In this document: positions 1,744 to 22,923 of the stretch, in pieces
How positions within the stretch are numbered: position 1 is the stretch's first letter
How the letters are laid out: each line of letters begins with the position of its first letter
Assembly: GCA_946891915.1 (NCBI GenBank)
Contig: CAMPNN010000008.1
Coordinates: forward strand, 1-40,347
Direction: 5' to 3'
Source of the DNA: an uncultured Bifidobacteriaceae bacterium
Lineage (GTDB): Bacteria; Actinomycetota; Actinomycetes; Actinomycetales; Bifidobacteriaceae
Length of the DNA stretch: 40,347 nucleotides
Position numbers and translations under genes: made by a program
Notes under the pieces: generated by a model
What the model was told of the DNA's origin: nothing
The model's input: the letters and a program-made list of their open reading frames with translations, nothing else
Database searches by the model: none

Positions 1744-1946
1744 TGTTACTCATGCAGTAAGCCGACTGCGTGAGTAAAAAAAATGCCCCTATACGTTACT
1801 CGCGCAGTAACTCATCTGCACTAGTAACGAATAATCGGCATTATACGTTACTAACGCAGAAACCATACTGCACTAGTAACGAAAAAACGCTGTTATACGT
1901 TACTAACGCAGTGTGCAATCTGCACCAGTAACGAAAAAGCGGTGGC
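1744..1946. repeat. Tandem 52-bp array, family A (array A1, 4 units)
   Basis: The anchor GTTACT recurs at 1745, 1795, 1847 and 1899, giving steps of 50, 52 and 52 bp. Each unit has the plan CGTTACT, then CGCAG, an 8-nt variable loop, CTGC, and AGTAACG. That is a 36-bp interrupted palindrome followed by a 16-bp linker ending in TATA. The array lies in the divergent gap between the ORF6N gene and the MntA-like gene. The remainder of 1456-2162 holds the pseudogene remnant, a damaged A unit near 1500-1545 and the MntA promoter region. Confidence 0.9.
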
Positions 1947-2162: not shown

Positions 2163-2567
2163 ATGGCAAATAATATTGCATCTTCTAATTCGCTTGCCGC
2201 CAACGCATCTGAACTAACGCCAATAGCGGTCAAAAATCTGTGCGAAAAAATAGCGCGCAAATTAGGCGTAGACGAGCTATACCTTTTTGGCTCGGTCGCG
2301 CGAAACGCAGCAAACCGCGATTCGGACGTTGACTTCATTTACCAAATTCGCAACGATTCAAACCTGCAGTCACCTCAATCGACTATTGAAGAAGCGAGAA
2401 AAAAGCAAGAATTACGCCTAGCTCTGTCCGAATGTTTAGGAAGAAAAGTGGACCTTGTAAACAAAGATTACGTAACGAAACCACTTTGCGATGACGGAGA
2501 TCTGGAGTTGCAAAGAAAAGCGTTCATTACAGCAATCAACAAACAGCCAATCTACAAAATCATTTAG
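2163..2567 (+). CDS. mntA: MntA-like nucleotidyltransferase antitoxin
   Basis: This is a 134-residue minimal nucleotidyltransferase. The family motif GSx10DxD is intact: GSVARNAANRDSDVDF at about residues 46-61. In the characterised MntA-HepT systems this enzyme adds AMP to a tyrosine of the HEPN partner and so blocks its RNase activity; that role is taken from the family. The start is well supported by GGAGG 7 nt upstream of the ATG, and residues 1-20 are a short extension before the domain. The HEPN partner begins 81 nt downstream on the same strand. The gap between them is larger than in tightly coupled pairs and contains four 12-bp repeats. Confidence 0.85.
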   Translation: MANNIASSNSLAANASELTPIAVKNLCEKIARKLGVDELYLFGSVARNAANRDSDVDFIYQIRNDSNLQSPQSTIEEARKKQELRLALSECLGRKVDLVNKDYVTKPLCDDGDLELQRKAFITAINKQPIYKII

Positions 2568-2585
2568 TGCGAGATTCGACGCGGA

Positions 2586-2633
2586 ATTTGGCACATAATT
2601 TGACACATAATTTGACACATAATTTGGCGCACA
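2586..2633 (+). repeat. Four 12-bp tandem repeats between mntA and hepT
   Basis: The unit ATTTGACACATA occurs four times in a row with 0-3 changes (2586, 2598, 2610, 2622), directly between the antitoxin stop and the toxin start. It could affect the leader of the toxin gene or its copy number could vary; both are inference. Confidence 0.8.
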
Positions 2634-2648
2634 ATAATAAGGTAAAAA

Positions 2649-3050
2649 ATGAGCACAATAAGCCCTCAAAACGACATGGTCCACGCAATCAAAATACGCA
2701 TGTATTTGCAAAAAGCAACAAATTTCATAAACAACATGACTTTGAGCGAATTCGAAGCAAATGAGGAAAAACAGTACGCTGCAGCGCATGCAGTAGAACA
2801 AGCCGGCGAGCATGTGAAGAAACTTTCGCAACATTTCCGTGAAGCAATGGGCGAAGTAGAGTGGAAAAATGTTGCGGGAATGCGTGACTGCATTGTTCAC
2901 GATTATGAAGGCATAGACATGGAATTGCTGTATACTTCGGTCGTTCGCGACGCGCCAAAAGTTGTGAAGTTGCTCAGCGAATATATATCAAACAATGAAA
3001 GCCTTTATGCTGATACAACTTTAGATTTCACGCGAATAAGAAGAATATAG
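2649..3050 (+). CDS. hepT: HepT-like HEPN-domain RNase toxin
   Basis: The protein has 133 residues, is mostly helical, and carries the HEPN signature Rx4HxY as RDCIVHDY at about residues 79-86, with a helix containing AEQAGEHVKKL-like residues before it. HepT toxins with this motif cleave RNA, and the tyrosine is the site AMPylated by MntA; both facts come from the family. The context (mntA immediately upstream, same strand) fits a type VII toxin-antitoxin pair. The ATG at 2649 follows a modest AAGG. Both partners keep their key residues, so the pair looks intact. A family A repeat array follows the stop. Confidence 0.85.
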   Translation: MSTISPQNDMVHAIKIRMYLQKATNFINNMTLSEFEANEEKQYAAAHAVEQAGEHVKKLSQHFREAMGEVEWKNVAGMRDCIVHDYEGIDMELLYTSVVRDAPKVVKLLSEYISNNESLYADTTLDFTRIRRI

Positions 3051-3083: not shown

Positions 3084-3304
3084 GACACGCGCGCTGAACG
3101 CAAACTGCACGAAGGTCACACTACGTCAATCTTCCGACCCTAACACAGAACGCCATCTGCACCAATGTCCGATAATCACCAACCAAAGGCTCTAACGCAG
3201 TACGTCATCTGCACGACGGTCGAATAACGCCGGTCTTCAGACCCGCGCGCAGAAACAGTACTGCACCAATGTCCTATAATCACCAACCAGAGACCCTAAC
3301 GCAG
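3084..3304. repeat. Tandem 52-bp array, family A (array A2, 4 full units plus a split one)
   Basis: The anchor CTGCAC falls at 3105, 3157, 3209 and 3261, exactly 52 bp apart. Units alternate between two linker types: one ends in an accaaccaga-like string and the other in a ggtcttcaga-like string. A fifth unit begins at 3292 (GACCCTAACGCAG) and is interrupted by the B2 element. Its other half (CCATCTGCACCAATGTC) reappears at 3438. The array fills the convergent space between hepT and higA. Confidence 0.9.
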
Positions 3305-3437
3305 CGCGACGACCTGCCTTCGCGCTTAAAGCGCAGCACGCGAAGGCAACTCGGAGCGGAAACTCGCTTAAGTTGGAAGTCCACTGGACTTCCAACTTAA
3401 GCGAGTTTCGTAAGCGAGCGCGTTACCCGCGCGAGCG
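3305..3437 (+). mobile_element. B element copy B2, inserted in a family A repeat unit
   Basis: This copy is about 133 bp and runs from CGCGACGACCTGCC to CGCGCGAGCG. It contains a perfect inverted repeat with 25-nt arms around one base (3359-3409), plus flanking GC-rich stem-loops. The two halves of one family A unit lie on either side (to 3304 and from 3438), which shows the element interrupts that unit. No open reading frame is present, so if mobile it is non-autonomous. The mobility is inference. Confidence 0.7.
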
Positions 3438-3493
3438 CCATCTGCACCAATGTCGCCACAAACCGCAGCGCGCGAACGCAGCGCTCAAGCAGG

Positions 3494-4355: not shown

Positions 4356-4763
4356 CATATAGATGCCCTGTTCTGTGAAGGCGTAAGGCTTGTACTTTAT
4401 ATTGCTACCTCTGCCTTGCTTTTTGTTCAAGGTCGCAAAACGCGACCTTGAAAGTTCAGATACTTGCCCATCGTTCAAGGTGCCAAAATTACAACTTTAA
4501 AATTCAGATACTCGACCATCGTTCAAGGTGCCAAAATGGTACCTTGAAAGTTCAGATACTTCCTCATCGGTTAATTGGAACATAAAATCGTCATCGAATT
4601 TTTCAATATTCCTTTTAACCTGTCTATTAAACATTTTTGTTTCGTAACCGTATATTTCAGCTAAATCCGAATCAAGCATAACTTTTTGATTTCTTATATA
4701 GTAAATCTTACTTTTAAGCGTAGTTTCATCTATTACAACAATCTCTTTATTTGCTTCTGACAC
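4356..4763 (-). pseudogene. Broken ORF6N-domain gene (second copy)
   Basis: The N-terminal part copies the intact gene at 427-1455 (EIVVIDETTLKSKIYYIRNQ, then AEIYGYETKMFNRQV). The start would be the GTG at 4763 behind a GGGGG site, where the intact gene has ATG. After residue about 80 a segment SELSRxxFxTLN is repeated about three times. One repeat carries an in-frame TAA at 4497-4499. Reading resumes in the same frame to PYAFTEQGIYM and is then cut off by a family A repeat at about 4355. The whole C-terminal PLD-like half is missing, so this is a remnant. Confidence 0.85.
4455..4560. repeat. About 50-bp tandem duplication inside the broken ORF6N gene
   Basis: Near-identical copies of TTCAGATACT..CATCGTTCAAGGT follow one another, with a partial third copy before them. 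Each has a short palindrome such as GGTGCCAAAATGGTACC. The intact paralogue has only one such site, with a different palindrome. Confidence 0.7.
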
Positions 4764-6118: not shown

Positions 6119-6233
6119 ACGACTGAGGTTATTAGACTTGACAATACTTGCGCAATAAGATTAACGCATTGTGGATAAAAGGTATTGAACGCACGGAAAT
6201 AAGCAGTTACGTAAGATTACGAATACTACGCAA

Positions 6234-6683
6234 GACAAGCGCGCAGTACGACGACTGCACGAAGGTCGCATAATGCCGATCTTCCGACACGCACGCAGTA
6301 ACTCATCTGCACGAATGTCGCACTATTCCGGTCTTCAGACCATAACGCAGAACGCAATCTGCACGAATGTCCGATAACCGCCAACCAGAGACCATAACGC
6401 AGTAAGCCATCTGCACGAAGGTCGAATAACGCAGGCCATCAGACAATAACGCATTACGCAATCTGCACCAATGTCCGATAACCGCCAACCAGAGACCCTA
6501 ACGCAGAAACAGTACTGCACGAAGGTCGCATTCTGCCGATCTTCAGGCCCTAACGCAGAACGCACGCTGCGCCAGTGTCCGAAAGTAGGCAAAATCAGAC
6601 ACTAACGCAGAAACAGTACTGCACCAGTGTCCCAAAACAAACAAAATGAGACACTAACGCAGTATGCACGCTACGCCAGCAAC
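6234..6683. repeat. Tandem 52-bp array, family A (array A4, 9 units)
   Basis: The CTGC (or CTAC) anchor lies at 6255, 6307, 6359, 6411, 6463, 6515, 6567, 6619 and 6671: eight consecutive steps of exactly 52 bp. The plan is GACNNTAACGCAG, an 8-nt loop, CTGCAC, then an arm that pairs with the first bases (GACC with GGTC, GACA with TGTC, GACACT with AGTGTC). Linkers vary between a few types. The array ends right at the rpoC terminator. Nothing else is recognised in 6119-6739 apart from one isolated DnaA-box-like site at 6170-6178. Confidence 0.95.
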
Positions 6684-6719
6684 AAAAAAGGAGCTTCAAG
6701 CCCGAAAGCTTGAAGCCCC
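6684..6719 (-). terminator. Rho-independent terminator of rpoC
   Basis: On the minus strand GGGGCTTCAAGC, a 6-nt loop and GCTTGAAGCTCC form a 12-bp stem (one G-U) followed by six Ts. It lies about 20 bp after the rpoC stop. Confidence 0.9.
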
Positions 6720-6739: not shown

Positions 6740-9700
6740 TCACTCAGCTTCGTCACCGTAATCGCCCTGACCGCCCTGATCATCAAGGAAGTCATCCGGA
6801 TTAAAGTCGTCGCCGAGCTTCATGTCGCCGAAGTCAATGTTGGAGAAGTCCACGTCGCCCATGTCGCTCTCACCGAAGTTCGATGGCGTGCCGTCAGCCC
6901 CACCCAAACCGAAGTTCGGGTAAATGGAGTCGCGCACCTGAGGATCCGGCTCCACGTTAGCGTTTCGGTAACGCGCCAAACCGGTACCAGCTGGGATGAG
7001 CTTACCGATAATCACGTTCTCCTTCAAGCCCTTAAGATCATCTTCCTTCTGGCTCAAGGCGGCCTCAGTAAGCACGCGCGTAGTCTCCTGGAACGATGCC
7101 GCAGAAAGCCAAGAATCCGTAGCCAAAGAAGCCTTGGTAATACCCATAAGCTCTGGTCGGCCGGCAGCAGGCTTTCCGCCGTTCTTCACAGCAGCCAAGT
7201 TTGCCTCGCGGAACTTTGCTTGGTCAACAAGCTCGCCTGGAAGAAGATCCGTGTCGCCAGAATCAATCACCGTAATGCGGCGAAGCATCTGGTGCACAAT
7301 AACCTCAATGTGCTTATCGTGAATATCAACGCCCTGAGAACGGTACACGTTGTGCACTTCTTCCACGATGTTCACCTGAGCTGCACGCGGGCCAAGAATA
7401 CGCAGAATCTTCTTAGGATCCACAGAACCCTCAATCAACTGCGTACCGACCTCAACGTGGTCGCCATCCTTCACAAGCATTGGCGCACGACGAGTCACAG
7501 GGTAAACGATTGGCTCAACCGTAGTGTCGTCCGGAGTCAAAGTCACCTGACGGCCGTGGTCGGTATCCTCAACCTTCACAACGCCTGGGAACTCAGCGAT
7601 TGGAGCCTCGCCCTTAGGAGTACGAGCCTCGAAAAGCTCCGTAACACGAGGAAGACCCTGCGTAATATCGGAAGCCGAAGCAACACCACCGGAGTGGAAG
7701 GAACGAAGCGTAAGCTGCGTACCAGGCTCACCAATGGACTGTGCTGCAACAATACCAACAGCCTCGCCAACATCCACAAGTCGGCTCGTAGCCAAGGACC
7801 ATCCGTAGCACTTTGCGCAAACGCCGCGCTTGGATTCGCAAGTAAGCACAGAACGCGCCTTAACTTCCTCAACGCCGTGCGCAACCAAATCGCGCAAAAC
7901 GTCCATAGAAAGCGCATCTCCGCACTTTGCCAAAACTGTAGTGCCGTCAGCAGGATCAACAACATCCGCAGCAAGCAAGCGCGAGTATGGGCCGCCGTCA
8001 GCAGCCTTAACAAGCGTCAAATTGCCGTTTTCATCGCGATCAGCAATCTTCATAACAAGGCCGCGCTTAGTGCCGCAGTCTTCTTCGCGCACGATTACTT
8101 CCTGCGAAACGTCCACAAGACGACGAGTCAAGTAACCAGATTCTGCAGTACGAAGTGCGGTATCTGCCAAGCCCTTACGAGCGCCGTGCTGGGAGATGAA
8201 GTACTCCAACACGGACAAGCCGTCGCGGTAGTTTGACTTAACAGGTCGAGGAATAATCTCGCCCTTAGGGTTTGCCACGAGGCCTCGCATACCAGCAATC
8301 TGGCGAATCTGCATCCAGTTACCACGTGCGCCTGACTGAACCATGATGTTCACGTTGTTGTCGTCGTGGAAGTTTTCGCGCATTGCGTCTGCAACCTTGT
8401 CGGTGCATTCAGTCCACAAGTTGATCAATTCTTGACGACGCTCTTCGTCTGTAAGAAGACCCATGTCGTACTGGGAGTTGATTTTTGCAGCCTGATCCTC
8501 GTAATCTTGCGCAATTGCCTCGCGATTTGGAGGAAGCACAATATCGGAGAATGCCATTGTTACGCCAGACCAAGGAGCGCGCGTAAAGCCGAGATCCTTC
8601 AAAGCGTCGAGTGTTGCTGCGACTTGCGCTGTAGAGTAGCGTGTTGCGATTTCGTCGACGATCTTAGAAAGTACGCCCTTTGGCACCTGTTCGTTTACGA
8701 ACGGATAGTCAACCGGCAAAGTTCCGTTGAACAAGATACGTCCGCAAGAAGTTGCGAAAAGTACAGTTCCGTCCTTAAAACGCTCTTCGCGCACAACGTC
8801 TGGGCTGCCTGGCTCAGGGTCAACTACCTTAAGCTCCGAAGGCTCCCAATTCCTTGGCAATACGAAGTCTGCAGGAACGCGGATCAGCACCTTAGCCTGC
8901 ATGTCGATCTCATGCTTGTCGAGAGCCATTTCAGCTTCAGCAAGCGAGGAGAAGATTCGGCCCTGGCCCTTGGCTCCGTCGATTACGGTAGACAAGTAGT
9001 AAAGGCCCAAAATCATATCCTGAGAAGGCATTGTAACGGTGTGGCCGTCTGCCGGCTTCAAAATATTGTCGGAAGCCATCATCAAAGTGCGCGCTTCAGC
9101 TTGAGCTTCTGCAGAAAGTGGAAGATGCACTGCCATCTGGTCACCATCGAAGTCTGCGTTAAATGCGGCGCAGGCAAGTGGCGGCAGGTGGATTGCTTTA
9201 CCTTCAACCAAAATTGGCTCGAAGGCCTGAATACCCAAGCGGTGCAGTGTAGGTGCGCGGTTAAGAAGCACAGGATGCTCGGAAATAACTTCCTCGAGCA
9301 CGCCCCAAACTTCGGAGTCGCCGCGGTCTACCAAACGCTTTGCGCTCTTCATGTTCTGAGCGAAGCCCTGGTCCACCAAACGCTTAATAACGAACGGCTT
9401 GAACAGTTCCAATGCCATTGGCTTTGGCAAACCGCACTGATGCATGCGAAGGCTTGGGCCAACGACGATTACGGAACGGCCTGAGTAATCAACACGCTTA
9501 CCAAGCAAGTTCTGGCGGAATCGGCCTTGCTTACCCTTAAGCATGTCGGAAAGCGACTTCAGTGCTCGGTTGGATGCGCCGGTTACTGGGCGTCCGCGGC
9601 GACCGTTGTCGAAGAGCGAGTCGACTGCTTCCTGAAGCATGCGCTTTTCGTTGTTGAGCATGATTTCAGGTGCGCCAAGCTCAATAAGTCGCTTCAAACG

Positions 9701-10759
9701 ATTGTTGCGGTTGATTACGCGACGGTACAAATCGTTCAAATCGGAAGTTGCGAAACGTCCACCGTCAAGCTGAACCATTGGTCGCAAATCTGGTGGGATT
9801 ACTGGAATTACGTCCAAAACCATAGCTTCTGGCTTGTTTCCAGTAGTCAAGAATGCGTTTACAACTTTCAGTCGCTTCAAAGCGCGAGCCTTGCGCTGAC
9901 CGGTACCGTTGTCGATTTCTGCGCGAAGTTCTTCTGCGGCAGACTTCAAATCGAAGTCTTGCAAACGCTTCTTAATAGCTTCAGCGCCCATGCAGCCTTC
10001 GAAGTAGTCGCCGTAACGATCTTCCATCTCGCGCCACAAGTCAACGTCGCCTTCCATATCGCCGGCACGCAAGCCCTTGAAGCGGTCAAATACGGCGTTC
10101 AAACGCTGAATTTGCTCGTCGTAGCGTGTGCGAATTGCGGCCATTTCGCGCTCTGCACTAGCGCGCAGCTTGGATTTGGCAGCGCCCTTGTTTTCGCCAG
10201 ATTCTTCCAGCTCGTGCAAGTCTTCTTCAACTTTCTTTGCGCGCGCTTCGATTTCGTTGTCGCGACGCTTGCGAAGGTTGCCGATTTCGGTATCGAATTC
10301 GTCTTGCAGATCTGGAAGATCCTGATGACGCTGCTCTTCGTCGACTTTCGTAACCATGTAGGCTGCGAAGTAGATTACTTTTTCAAGATCTTTAGGTGCA
10401 ATGTCGAGCAGGTAGCCCAAACGGCTTGGCACACCTTTGAAGAACCAAATGTGCGTCACCGGAGCTGCAAGCTCAATATGACCCATGCGTTCGCGGCGAA
10501 CGCGGCTGCGCGTAACTTCTACGCCGCATCGCTCGCACACGATTCCCTTAAAGCGCACGCGCTTGTACTTGCCACACGCGCACTCCCAGTCGCGAGTTGG
10601 ACCGAAGATCTGCTCACCGAACAGACCGTCCTTTTCTGGCTTTAGGGTACGGTAATTAATGGTTTCTGGCTTCTTTACTTCGCCGTGGCTCCAGCTACGG
10701 ATATCTTCGGCGGTTGCCAGTCCAATCCTCAGTTTGTCAAATGCGTTGACGTCCAGCAC
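6740..10759 (-). CDS. rpoC: DNA-directed RNA polymerase subunit beta'
   Basis: This is the catalytic beta' subunit of RNA polymerase, 1339 residues, full length for actinobacteria. It begins with a GTG ([14 protein letters not shown]) behind AGGA with 8-nt spacing. The N-terminal zinc site is visible at about residues 60-80 (CACGKYKRV...CERCG). The metal-binding active-site motif NADFDGDQ lies at about residue 535. A second zinc cluster is at about 890-980 ([18 protein letters not shown]). The C-terminus is an acidic tail typical of bifidobacteria. It lies 94 bp after rpoB and is co-transcribed with it; it ends in the terminator at 6684-6719. Confidence 0.99.
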
Positions 10760-14720: not shown

Positions 14721-14857
14721 CGAAGGCACGCTCGCGCGATTAACGCGTTCGCTACGAAACTCGCGTTGGAAGCACACTGTGCTTCCAACTTAAGCGAGTT
14801 TCCGCTCCGAGTTGCCTTCGCGCGCTACGCTCTGAGCGCGAAAGCAGGTCGTCGCGC
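14721..14857 (-). mobile_element. B element copy B3 (137 bp)
   Basis: This copy is the same length as B5 at 22760 and in the same orientation. It contains the central hairpin at 14756-14802, with inner arms GGAAGCACA and TGTGCTTCC, and side hairpins such as TTCGCGCG...GCGCGAA. The left arm lacks the TTAA that the right arm has. It has no coding capacity. It separates the rpoB leader from the candidate RNA at 14946. Confidence 0.7.
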
Positions 14858-14945
14858 AGAGCCGAAGGCTGCTGACAAGCCGAGCGAAGAAGAAAAATCG
14901 AAAAATCTCTGCGATAAAACACGGTTATTAAAGATTAAGCACGCA

Positions 14946-15085
14946 GAGTTTGGGGGATTTCTCTACGAGAACTAAAAGAGGACTGAGGAAGCAACATTCA
15001 TTTAAGAACAAAGCAGACACAAAAAGCCTCTAACAGTCAGAGCGACGAAGGACGGGACGTTCGAGGAGAGAAATCCCCAAAACTC
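14946..15085 (+). ncRNA. Candidate structured RNA or long hairpin leader
   Basis: Two 27-nt arms (14946-14972 and 15059-15085) are complementary except at four positions, with a core GGGGATTTCTCT and AGAGAAATCCCC. The 86-nt interior has a further nested pairing (GACT...AGTC with GAGG...CCTC inside). A competing stem CTCTGCG (14907-14913) with CGCAGAG (14942-14948) overlaps the left arm, so two alternative folds are possible. It lies 110 nt before the TrmL-like gene. It does not show the signatures of tmRNA, RNase P RNA or SRP RNA. It could be a leader, an independent RNA, or a small inverted-repeat element. Strand is assumed. Confidence 0.4.
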
Positions 15086-15195
15086 GCGCAACACCAAACA
15101 TGAATGCTCACAATAGTAATGTGCAAGTCGCGAGTAAACTAAATACGTTACGATTACAAAGTTACGTAAGGAATATTAAAAAGCTAAGGAATAGC

Positions 15196-17010: not shown

Positions 17011-17134
17011 CGCAACGATCTGCTTGAGCGCAGCATTGCGCGCGCGAAAGCAACTCGGAGCGTGAGCTTGCTCAAGTTGAAAGCACGGTGTGCTTTCAAC
17101 GCAAGCTCAGTAGCGAGCGCATAGCGCGCGAGCG
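17011..17134 (+). mobile_element. B element copy B4
   Basis: This copy is opposite in orientation to B5 at 22760. The central hairpin is at 17063-17109. Its outer arms read TGAGCTTGC and GCAAGCTCA where other copies read GAAACTCGC and GCGAGTTTC, so both sides of the stem have changed together. Flanking strings AACTCGGAGCG and GCGCGCGAGCG match the other copies. Confidence 0.65.
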
Positions 17135-17149: not shown

Positions 17150-17398
17150 GAAACATTTGCCGGAAATTATCCGGCATTTGTAGCTATATCAGCGTTATTT
17201 TGGAACATTTGCCGGAGTTTTTTCTCCGGAAAATGTAGCTGCACCAGCGTTGTTTTGGAACATTTGCCGGAAATTATCCGGCATTTGTAGCTGAATTTGC
17301 GCAATTATGGAACATTTGCCGGAAATTATCCGGCATTTGTAGCTGAATTTGCGTAATTATGGAACATTTGCCGGAGAATTACACGGCGAATGTTCCAT
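17150..17398. repeat. Tandem 52-bp array, family C (5 units)
   Basis: AACATTTG starts at 17152, 17204, 17259, 17311 and 17363: steps of 52, 55, 52 and 52. The core is GCCGGA, a short AT loop and TCCGGC. One unit instead has CCGGAG and CTCCGG, a paired change. The linker of the 55-bp unit, GCTGCACCAGCGTT, resembles family A. Confidence 0.9.
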
Positions 17399-17434
17399 AA
17401 AACAGTGATATGTACCCCTTTTGCTGAACATACA

Positions 17435-17800
17435 TCAATTCCGATTATTCCTTTACGCCGATGTAAAGTCTCAACCGCTTTCCCGCAAAATACCGACATT
17501 CCCTTTACACGGCTGTAAAGTTTTAATCGCTTTTTGACTTGATTCCGATTATTCCTATACAACACTGTAAAATTTCTGTCACTTTTCGCCACGATTCCGA
17601 TTATTCCTATACAACACTGTAAAATTTCTGTCACTTTTCGCCACGATTCCGATTATTCCTATACAACACTGTAAAGTTTCTGTCACTTTTCGCCACGATT
17701 CCGATTATTCCTATACACGCACGTAAAGAAACAATCGCTTTTCAGCTAAATTGCGACATTTCCTATACACGCACGTAAAGAAACTGTCATCTCGCGCAAA
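17435..17800. repeat. Tandem 52-bp array, family D (7 units)
   Basis: The anchor CTWTAC lies at 17451, 17503, 17555, 17607, 17659, 17711 and 17763: six steps of exactly 52 bp. The unit is ATTCCGATTATTCCTATACA followed by CACTGTAAA and a variable tail. The core TTTACA-NNN-TGTAAA is a palindrome. The array fills the convergent gap before the UPF0210 stop. Confidence 0.95.
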
Positions 17801-17815
17801 GAGAACGCTACTTCC

Positions 17816-19180
17816 TTAGTTCTTAAAGCTGTGAACAGGCGCCGGAATACGCCCACCGCGCGTAACGAAAGCCTCGCAACTGGTCTGATTCACCGGCATA
17901 ATCGGCGCGTACCCCATCAATCCGCCGAAGTTCGCCATCTCGCCAACGCCCTTGCCAATCACAGGAATAATGCGCACGGCCGTAGTCTTCTGATTAATCA
18001 TGCCGATTGCTGATTCGTCCGCAATCATTCCAGAAATCGTAGCGGCGGAAGTATCTCCCGGAATCGCAATCATATCGAGGCCCACAGAGCACACGCAAGT
18101 CATTGCTTCAAGCTTTTCAATCGTCAAGCAGCCAGATTTCGCCGCCGCAATCATATTCGCATCTTCCGAAACAGGTATGAACGCTCCGGAAAGTCCGCCA
18201 ACGTAGCTGCTGGCCATAATTCCGCCCTTCTTCACCTGATCGTTCAGCATTGCGAGCGCCGCAGTCGTGCCAGGCGCACCAACCTGCTCCAAACCAATCT
18301 TCTCAAGCACTTCGCCAACGGAATCTCCAACTGCAGGCGTTGGCGCAAGCGACAAATCAATAATTCCAAACGGCACTCCAAGCCTGCGCGAAGCCTCTTG
18401 CGCAACCAACTGCCCCACTCGCGTAATCTTAAACGCCGTGCGCTTAATCGTTTCGCACAGGAAAGCAAAGTCCTTGCCGCGAGCCGCGTCCAGCGCGCAC
18501 GACACTACGCCCGGCCCGGAAACGCCCACGTTAATCACAGCATCGCCTTCAGTAACGCCGTGGAATCCGCCTGCCATAAACGGATTATCGTCCGGAGCGT
18601 TGCAAAAAGCCACAAACTTAACGCATCCGTAAGAATCCTTGCTAGCCGTCGCCTCGGCAATCTTCTTAACCGTGCGCCCAAGCAGCTCCACGCAATCCAT
18701 GTCGATTCCGGTGCGAGTTGAGCCAACGTTCACAGACGAGCACACAATTTCCGTCTCGCTTAAAGCTTGCGGAAGCGACTCAATAAGCATGCGGTCGGCT
18801 GCAGTCATCGACTTCGCAGGAAGCGCGGAATATCCGCCGATTAAATCAACTCCAACCGTGTGCGCTGCCCTGTCTAGCGCGTGCGCAATTTGCACAAAAT
18901 CTTCAGGCTTTTTGCAAGACGACGCACCAACAAGCGAAATCGGCGTTACGGTAATTCGCTTGTTTACAATCGGAATGCCGTAATCGCGCGAAATGTCGTT
19001 GCCGGTTTTGACGAGGTCTTTCGCAAGACGCGTGATTTTCGCCTCAACATTGCGGCAAACGTCCTGCAAATTTTCCGAAGCACAGTCGAGCAGGTTAATT
19101 CCCATTGTGATTGTGCGAACGTCGAGCTGTTCTTGCTCAATCATCGAATTGGTTTCGCTTACTTCCATCAAGTTGAGCAT
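17816..19180 (-). CDS. UPF0210 (DUF711) PFL-like family protein
   Basis: The protein has 454 residues and belongs to the UPF0210 family, recognised from the start [17 protein letters not shown], the middle [20 protein letters not shown] and the end [20 protein letters not shown]. Its fold is related to glycyl-radical pyruvate formate-lyase-like proteins, but the biochemical role is not established. It almost always sits next to an ACT-domain UPF0237 protein, as it does here (upstream at 19319-19645). The ATG at 19180 follows AAGGA with 8-nt spacing. A 138-bp degenerate TACGGTTTCGC repeat stretch separates the two genes. Confidence 0.9.
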
Positions 19181-22281: not shown

Positions 22282-22417
22282 AAACTGCTAACTTGCAAGC
22301 AAATCGCTCGCCAAGCAAACAACTTAAATAGAATACCACGGATCGCAGATATTGCAAACTCGCGCGCGCCGCAGCGACGAACCCCGACCAAATCTCCTGC
22401 AAATGCTCCATAACAAC

Positions 22418-22618
22418 GCCAAAGCGATTATTTCTTTACAGCGCCGTACAGAAAATAACGAAACCTCACCTAAAAACGATTTTTCCTTTACAGCGCTGTA
22501 TAGAAAATAACGAAACCTCACCTAAAAACGATTTTTCCTTTACAGCGCTGTACAGAAAATAACGAAATCTCGCCCAAAACCGACAATTCCTTTACACGAG
22601 CGTAAAGAAACAGTCGAA
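22418..22618. repeat. Tandem 52-bp array, family D (second array, 4 units)
   Basis: The anchor CTTTAC starts at 22434, 22486, 22538 and 22590, each 52 bp apart. The core TTTACAGCGCTGTA is palindromic and more symmetric than in the array at 17435. An inverted family C fragment (TCCGGCAAATGTTCC) follows at about 22625-22640. The stretch 22282-22417 shows nothing else. Confidence 0.9.
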
Positions 22619-22660
22619 ACTATCTCCGGCAAATGTTCCAGTAGCTTTGCAGTAATGCTT

Positions 22661-22757
22661 CTGCTAACAGTGAGTATTTGCTGGTTAGTGAACTTTAACA
22701 GTATTGCTCTGCTAACGGTGAGTATTTATTGCTTAGAGAACGCTAGCATCGTTGCTG
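22661..22757 (+). repeat. Two 48-bp tandem repeats
   Basis: CTGCTAACRGTGAGTATTT starts at 22661 and 22709. The preceding GCAG, 8 nt, CTGC arrangement matches the core plan of family A. Confidence 0.6.
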
Positions 22758-22759
22758 AG

Positions 22760-22896
22760 CGAAGACACGCTCGCGCGGGTAACGCGCTCGCTACGAAACT
22801 CGCGTTGGAAGTCCACTGGACTTCCAACTTAAGCGAGTTTCCGCTCCGAGTTACTTTCGCGCGCTACGCTTTTAGCGCGAAAGCAGGTCGTCGCGC
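22760..22896 (-). mobile_element. B element copy B5 (137 bp)
   Basis: Complete copy nearly identical to B3 and of the same length. The central hairpin is at 22795-22841 with inner arms GGAAGTCCA and TGGACTTCC, as in B2. No reading frame is present. Confidence 0.7.
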
Positions 22897-22923
22897 ACCA
22901 AAAACAACGGTGGGTGAATTTGC

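Follow-up and report, generated by a model that had tools for sequence, protein, structure and literature searches.

The window analysed here is a 40,347-nucleotide stretch of DNA (contig CAMPNN010000008.1, assembly GCA_946891915.1) from an uncultured Bifidobacteriaceae bacterium, and was taken as Gardnerella because the DUF711 protein that it encodes at 17816-19180 (Pfam) shares 100% identity with its counterpart in Bifidobacteriaceae bacterium NR047, and 98% with the counterparts in Gardnerella vaginalis NR010 and G. swidsinskii. RpoC of two further genomes, G099 and G112, was 99% identical to RpoC of the window. Tandem arrays were located using TRF, which, after merging of rows, returned 52-bp arrays at 1790-1942, 3136-3304, 6233-6679, 17152-17381, 17513-17769 and 22421-22596. 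Autocorrelation of the whole window gave 755 qualifying positions at lag 52 and 643 at lag 104; outside the multiples of 52, the strongest lag was 48, with 119 qualifying positions. Lags 51, 53 and 54 had zero segments, which rules out a chance origin of the lag-52 signal, and lags 50 and 55 had a single segment each, both inside or at the margin of the 52-bp arrays. An intergenic step of 52 bp, as proposed in the preliminary description of this DNA, was confirmed for six arrays by TRF, autocorrelation and core anchors, with exceptions of 50 and 55 bp that are named below.

Three of the arrays belong to family A. Array A1 (1754..1942) contains four cores of the form GCAG-N8-CTGC at steps of 50, 52 and 52 bp, has outer arms of the AAC/GTT type, and lies upstream of a nucleotidyltransferase/HepT pair (Pfam). 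Array A2 (3084..3322) proceeds in 52-bp steps with outer arms of the GTC/GAC type, its anchors consisting of one 52-bp step plus degenerate cores 52 bp off on either side, and its right side is broken by a nested palindromic element at approximately 3320-3440. The nucleotidyltransferase/HepT genes, a pair of the toxin-antitoxin type, occupy 2163-3050 between A1 and A2; a HepT search of six related genomes, run without a positive control, gave zero matches. Array A4 (6233..6689) is immediately downstream of rpoC (6740-10759, minus strand; Pfam), and comprises nine units, one with a degenerate core, at steps of 52, 52, 52, 104, 52, 52 and 52 bp, where the 104-bp step bridges the degenerate core at 6458. 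Array C (17152..17396) has five units with core GCCGGA-TCCGGC at steps of 52, 55, 52 and 52 bp, the 3 additional bases of the 55-bp step sitting within one longer palindrome. Array D1 (17432..17804), between convergent genes and adjoining the DUF711 gene, has seven units with core (C)TTTACA-TGTAAA(G) and variants, spaced by 52 bp in 6/6 steps. Array D2 (22408..22620) lies between tRNA-Ser and the UDP-galactopyranose mutase (glf) gene, with four cores at 22435, 22487, 22539 and 22591 (52 bp in 3/3 steps), and is flanked on both sides by C-like half elements. The anchor counts previously given for A1, C, D1 and D2 were all reproduced.

By eye, nested palindromic elements of approximately 100-140 bp were seen beside or within arrays at 3320-3440, 17030-17130 and 22760-22900 of the window, and in loci L002, L003, L241 and L243; an A unit is split at 3320, and one end of the element resembles an A core (GCAGCGCGACGACTGC).

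Arrays with another period are present in the same window. A palindromic array with a 48-bp unit, TTCAAGGT...ACCTTGAA, lies at 4413-4582 (dyad 0.85, equalled in 0/500 shuffles) and, as an array of similar kind at another period, is evidence against a universal 52-bp step. A further 48-bp family at 22640-22764 had no detectable dyad (p 0.96), and 48-49-bp arrays resembling it in sequence are present in the G. vaginalis NR010 sample. The palindrome arms of the array at 4413-4582 vary among units, by eye in a partly compensatory way (GGTCGC/GCGACC versus GGTGCC/GGTACC).

Core-to-core steps were collected from a de-duplicated set comprising the window and 66 Gardnerella loci, using neighbouring cores 40-70 bp apart. 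The step was exactly 52 bp in 40/41 cases for A cores (the remaining step being 50 bp), and in 17/18 cases for D cores (the remaining step being 41 bp). The 20 steps of family C were distributed over 52 bp (seven), 53.5 bp (twelve) and 55 bp (one), and in 20/20 cases the value followed the pair of palindromes involved, according to whether it consisted of two short ones, one of each kind, or two that are 3 bp longer; counting the short C core alone would give a misleading 7/7 at 52 bp. In whole genomes, A cores were spaced by 52 bp in 18/18 steps in G099, and in 13/15 in G112 (the others being one of 51 and one of 53 bp), D cores gave six steps of 52 and one of 104 bp in NR047, and eight of 52 and three of 104 bp among 34 listed of 42 in NR010, and the 13 D cores of G. 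swidsinskii had no neighbours within 165 bp. With wider core patterns and the undeduplicated set, C steps were 52 (six), 53.5 (fifteen), 55 (one) and 104 bp (one), and D steps were 51 (seven), 52 (seventeen), 53 (two), 42 (one) and 103 bp (one); the variation in C is genuine, and that in D was taken as an effect of where the wider pattern places its centre.

Unit profiles of the three families were compared over 104 shifts and orientations with the cores masked. A and D fitted best at shift 0, and A and C at shift 0 or 1 (both rank 1 of 104), with z of about 3 for the register of the outer halves in both pairs; C and D showed a weak register (rank 2-3 of 104), and with cores included A and D were out of register at rank 10. 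For any one pair, rank 1 within a shift of 1 would arise by chance with a probability of 6/104. Pairs with unrelated arrays (B. apri, B. santillanense and the 48-bp array) ranked from 2 to 68, the rank of 2 being that of D against B. santillanense, which served as a negative control and was treated as noise. Kinship of A, C and D to any of these arrays was rejected, the registers being otherwise unmatched. There is moderate support from these alignments for an ancestor, or a common outer module, shared by A, C and D. Of three families with differing sequences, as initially described, the cores do differ, but the outer halves of A and C, and of A and D, align in register under core masking; the possibility, also raised there, that the families are recent copies of one sequence is not the case.

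Calls made by eye on printed sequence show that one family can take the place of another next to a given gene in related species. Family A is the one seen at the 3' end of rpoC in the window, NR010, G099, G112 and G. swidsinskii, in the last of these together with a nested palindromic element; NR047 has two D cores there, and G. piotii has none of the family cores; the far flank in NR047 is a different gene from that in the window, so that there the sameness of the site rests on one flanking gene. At the tRNA-Ser/glf site, the window has D, NR010 has both D and C, G. swidsinskii has A, and NR047 and G099 have a single C each, with cores absent from G112 and G. piotii. Next to the DUF711 gene, the window has both C and D and NR010 has C, whereas remnants were seen in NR047 (of C) and G. 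swidsinskii (mixed), with cores absent from G. piotii. Because families swap beside the same genes in related species, one ancestral array that diverged by turnover, which had been offered at first as an alternative, is the better fit.

Turnover of this kind could be entirely neutral, and the main rival to the reading favoured below is that the arrays are functionless mosaic minisatellites, in which slippage and in-register recombination act on the units, the common length is a by-product because only units of that length recombine well, and palindromes matter solely by promoting slippage. In its favour, copy number and family vary beside the same gene among close species, and similar arrays exist at other periods (48-49 bp and the C steps of 53.5 and 55 bp in Gardnerella, and 71 bp in locus L233). 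The arrays also have no clear orientation preference, as 19 arrays of 51-55 bp comprised 9 co-directional, 7 convergent and 3 divergent cases, compared with 38, 14 and 14, respectively, among 66 gaps of at least 250 bp, all by crude ORF calls that score A1 as co-directional where the Pfam-supported genes around it diverge. Against it, adjacent A units differ at 15/52 positions on average, which is too diverged for recent homogenisation, and yet their length is fixed. Shuffling of old modules would soften this point, yet each module must still have kept its length. Neutral turnover is a serious possibility, to which we give about one chance in three.

To quantify the fixity of length, indels expected from divergence were compared with irregular steps observed. 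Adjacent A units differed at a mean of 15.2/52 positions (607 differences over 40 pairs), and adjacent D units by 225 differences over 17 pairs; as these raw counts are inflated by shuffled old modules, a lower bound on substitutions, taken as the distinct bases per column, was used (101 for A, 84 for D), which protects only partly. Non-array noncoding DNA gave 59 gap events and 225 mismatches when the window was set against L001, L002 and L003, which made the three largest comparisons, and twelve smaller control comparisons ranged from zero aligned columns up to 0.54 gaps per mismatch. The pooled control ratio with the lower bound predicted 26.5 (A) and 22 (D) indels, versus a single irregular step in either family (P about 9e-11 and 6e-9), although the control is a comparison between species, and the arrays are copies within genomes. 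With the ratio of L003 (0.125) the P values were 4e-5 (A) and 3e-4 (D), and with the lowest usable ratio (0.056; L242, 2 gaps and 36 mismatches) the deficit was weak, at 0.024 (A) and 0.053 (D). A deficit of indels in A and D is likely from these counts, its magnitude being uncertain. The suggestion that spacing is constrained is therefore supported for A and D, with 1 irregular step despite 607 differences in A, and fails for C, with steps of 52, 53.5 and 55 bp.

The inner anatomy of the units was examined for symmetry and phase. A crude dyad test on TRF consensus sequences was significant for C (p 0.018), borderline for A1 (0.066) and D2 (0.056), and insignificant for A2 (p 0.94) and D1 (p 0.95). 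Short cores are enriched; in NR010, for example, CTTTAC-N6-GTAAAG occurs 42 times and its reversed pattern 0 times. In family A, the outer trinucleotides, 15-17 bp from the core centre, were of the same type across the spacer in 40/40 neighbours, and arm type switched within 7/56 units versus 0/40 across spacers (Fisher p = 0.039); counted by letter, switches were 11/56 within units versus 3/40 across spacers (p = 0.14). Pairing of D outer arms across the spacer was no higher than in shuffles, and cross-spacer pairing was rejected as a general rule, as it applies to A and fails in D. Degenerate A cores with one mismatch showed compensation in 0/4 cases, and more degenerate A cores had one compensatory pair in 1/10. 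The proportions of arm types AAC:GTC differ among species, being 49:5 in G112, 45:107 in NR010, 18:46 in G099, 25:17 in G. swidsinskii, 4:19 in NR047 and 0:0 in G. piotii (reversed-pattern controls, 0-3 per genome); chi-square was 78 over the five non-empty genomes, an unclean test since arms within one array are not independent.

The preliminary description had further proposed that the step, at about five helical turns, would place each core on one face of the helix. With 10.4 bp per turn, 52 bp does amount to 5.0 turns, but conservation showed no significant harmonic at 10.4 bp (p = 0.06 for A, 0.69 for C, 0.23 for D), and 48-bp arrays and steps of 53.5 and 55 bp coexist with the 52-bp arrays, so that the idea is unsupported. 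A 13-bp harmonic was found in A (p = 0.026) and D (p = 0.004; C, 0.50), and mirrors only the layout of blocks.

Palindromic units in tandem could alternatively act as RNA hairpins serving as transcript terminators, stabilisers or processing sites, the period being hairpin plus linker. Strong folding was seen in C (z on the two strands, -10.2/-8.0), A1 (-5.4/-5.6) and D2 (-4.8/-3.6), as this explanation predicts, but is not general (A4, -2.7/-1.4; D1, -0.1/-1.8), and palindromes fold as RNA from either strand regardless of role. The arrays had no Rfam match at gathering score (D2 had one chance-level microRNA match, at 25.3 bits versus a gathering score of 90), and three arrays lie between divergent ORFs, leaving an RNA role improbable.

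STAR elements of Staphylococcus are intergenic direct repeats at many loci, with a short motif and a 40-44 bp spacer, whose copies expand and contract, whose spacers are locus-specific, whose abundance is uneven among species, whose locations reportedly differ among staphylococcal species, and whose function is unknown (PMC3532100). The 14-bp STAR motif given there, T(G/A/T)TGTTG(G/T)GGCCC(C/A) (PMC3532100), and the shorter TGTTGNGGCCC had 0 matches on both strands of the window and 66 Gardnerella loci. The Gardnerella repeats likewise form direct repeats between genes at many loci and vary in copy number, but differ in that units have a palindromic core, several core families exist, sites are common to several species, and family A holds its 52-bp step through about 29% divergence. 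MIRU of Mycobacterium, also an actinobacterium, are tandem repeats between genes that vary in copy number, many having units of about 53 bp; to our knowledge, they form one related family and have no palindromic core. BIME/REP of E. coli and REPINs are described as intergenic palindromic units in mosaic, strain-variable clusters (PMC2884548, PMC3733652), which the Gardnerella repeats resemble in their tandem palindromic cores and mixed D plus C clusters, and from which they differ in having several unrelated cores and a near-fixed step. No description of these Gardnerella repeats was found in open-licence PubMed Central papers.

Spread of the units as mobile palindromes (REPIN or MITE-like), carried by a transposase and leaving tandem copies, would account for dispersed copies, single remnants at some sites, and different families beside one gene. 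The RAYT transposase domain PF01797, in a search that covered neither G099 nor G112, was found in 0/4 Gardnerella genomes and 1/14 Bifidobacteriaceae, and matched 5/14 control genomes, so that a RAYT-driven REP system is unsupported. DNA like the C and D arrays was absent from 50,697 phage records, and DNA like array A4 from 72,556 plasmid records; recurring sites, moreover, are unexpected under free insertion. Mobile units consequently seem an unlikely source.

The arrays are probably best read as an interspersed mosaic repeat that is specific to this lineage and behaves much as BIME or STAR elements do. We favour, at a probability of roughly 0.45, an interspersed mosaic repeat of Gardnerella whose unit length is under purifying selection, probably as a fixed-length module bound in tandem by a putative protein. 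The descriptive part of this explanation we regard as quite probable. Each 52-bp unit consists of a palindromic core, with arms centred about 6.5 bp from the centre, and outer half-sites about 16 bp away, which in family A mirror one another across the spacer as well. Recombination or conversion among arrays would produce growth, shrinkage and in-place replacement, by which the core family would switch (A, C, D), with the unit length and part of the outer half (A-C, A-D) retained. Purifying selection would hold the length because the unit would act as a fixed-length module, most plausibly within a lattice of sites that a dimeric DNA-binding protein, or a nucleoid protein that reads structure, would occupy. 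This mechanism does not require helical phasing, which is unsupported. The lattice step itself we consider doubtful, as three differing cores per genome suit one sequence-specific protein poorly, and the length rule has against it that C escapes 52 bp, that 48-bp arrays coexist, and that the crude dyad test fails D1 and A2. Intergenic mosaic repeats of the STAR/BIME type are common and mostly unexplained. In two of the three families here length is held tighter than sequence, so that a length constraint becomes separable from a sequence constraint, and the identity of the reader of the 52-bp step becomes a testable question. The arrays also provide variable markers for Gardnerella typing.

The distribution of such arrays was surveyed in other bacteria. 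DNA similar to arrays C and D was found in 4/121 Bifidobacteriaceae genomes (NR010, NR047, G099, G112), and DNA similar to array A4 in NR010 only, among 98 genomes of the class. Arrays of 51-53 bp whose sequence is unrelated to these were seen twice in B. apri, and also in B. santillanense, B. catenulatum and B. scaligerum. Among 45 noncoding arrays with a period of at least 35 bp in 175 Bifidobacteriaceae loci, 15 had a period of exactly 52 bp and 19 of 51-53 bp (15/19 of the latter in Gardnerella), the B. santillanense array being excluded from the count owing to a spurious ORF overlap. Other periods included 45, 48-49, 55, 57, 71, 74, 79 and 120 bp, and 61 bp in CRISPR-like arrays. The broad spread of periods envisaged at the outset as counting against a 52-bp rule is thus not clearly seen, in that periods cluster (19/45 at 51-53 bp), and others exist too. 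In 43 non-bifidobacterial loci, two such arrays were found, with periods of 53 and 107 bp. The B. santillanense array had steps of 50-52 bp plus one gap of 154 bp. The dyad was significant in B. apri L158 (p 0.00, 100 shuffles), and had p values of 0.08-0.13 in L025, L128 and L145; in a second dyad scan, the centre recurred in B. santillanense, was single in L128 and in L145, and was absent from L025 and L158.

A more far-reaching possibility is a sequence-tolerant, length-reading system of Bifidobacteriaceae, in which a trans-acting factor would sense modules of ~52 bp mainly by structure and spacing. Were it so, cores would be replaceable family by family with the step unchanged, each species would fix its arm type (AAC versus GTC) by co-evolution with the factor, and the 51-53-bp arrays of B. 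apri, B. santillanense, B. catenulatum and B. scaligerum would belong to the same system; we hold this to be rather unlikely.

Several further arrays were encountered in the survey. At L233:12740-13720 (Bifidobacteriaceae), about 13.6 tandem copies of a 71-bp unit carry mirrored GGCGA/TCGCC blocks, although the consensus fails the crude dyad test (p 0.51). L077:11471-11715, in Anaerocolumna, a member of another family, has 4.6 copies of a 53-bp unit in which the dyad is partial (p 0.17). CRISPR arrays share a regular period and a palindromic repeat with the Gardnerella repeats, and arrays that look like them are present in L133 and L152 at 61 bp; a CRISPR identity of the 52-bp arrays was ruled out, as both halves of the unit recur, the spacer halves are themselves conserved between loci, and unique spacers are absent. 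The CRISPR-like 61-bp arrays are located at L133:7996-8390 and 8850-9304, and at L152:6361-6754 and 14855-15187, with repeats of the GTCTTTCCCGCATACGCGGGGGTGATCC- and GTGTTCCCCGC-type in G. swidsinskii and B. santillanense.
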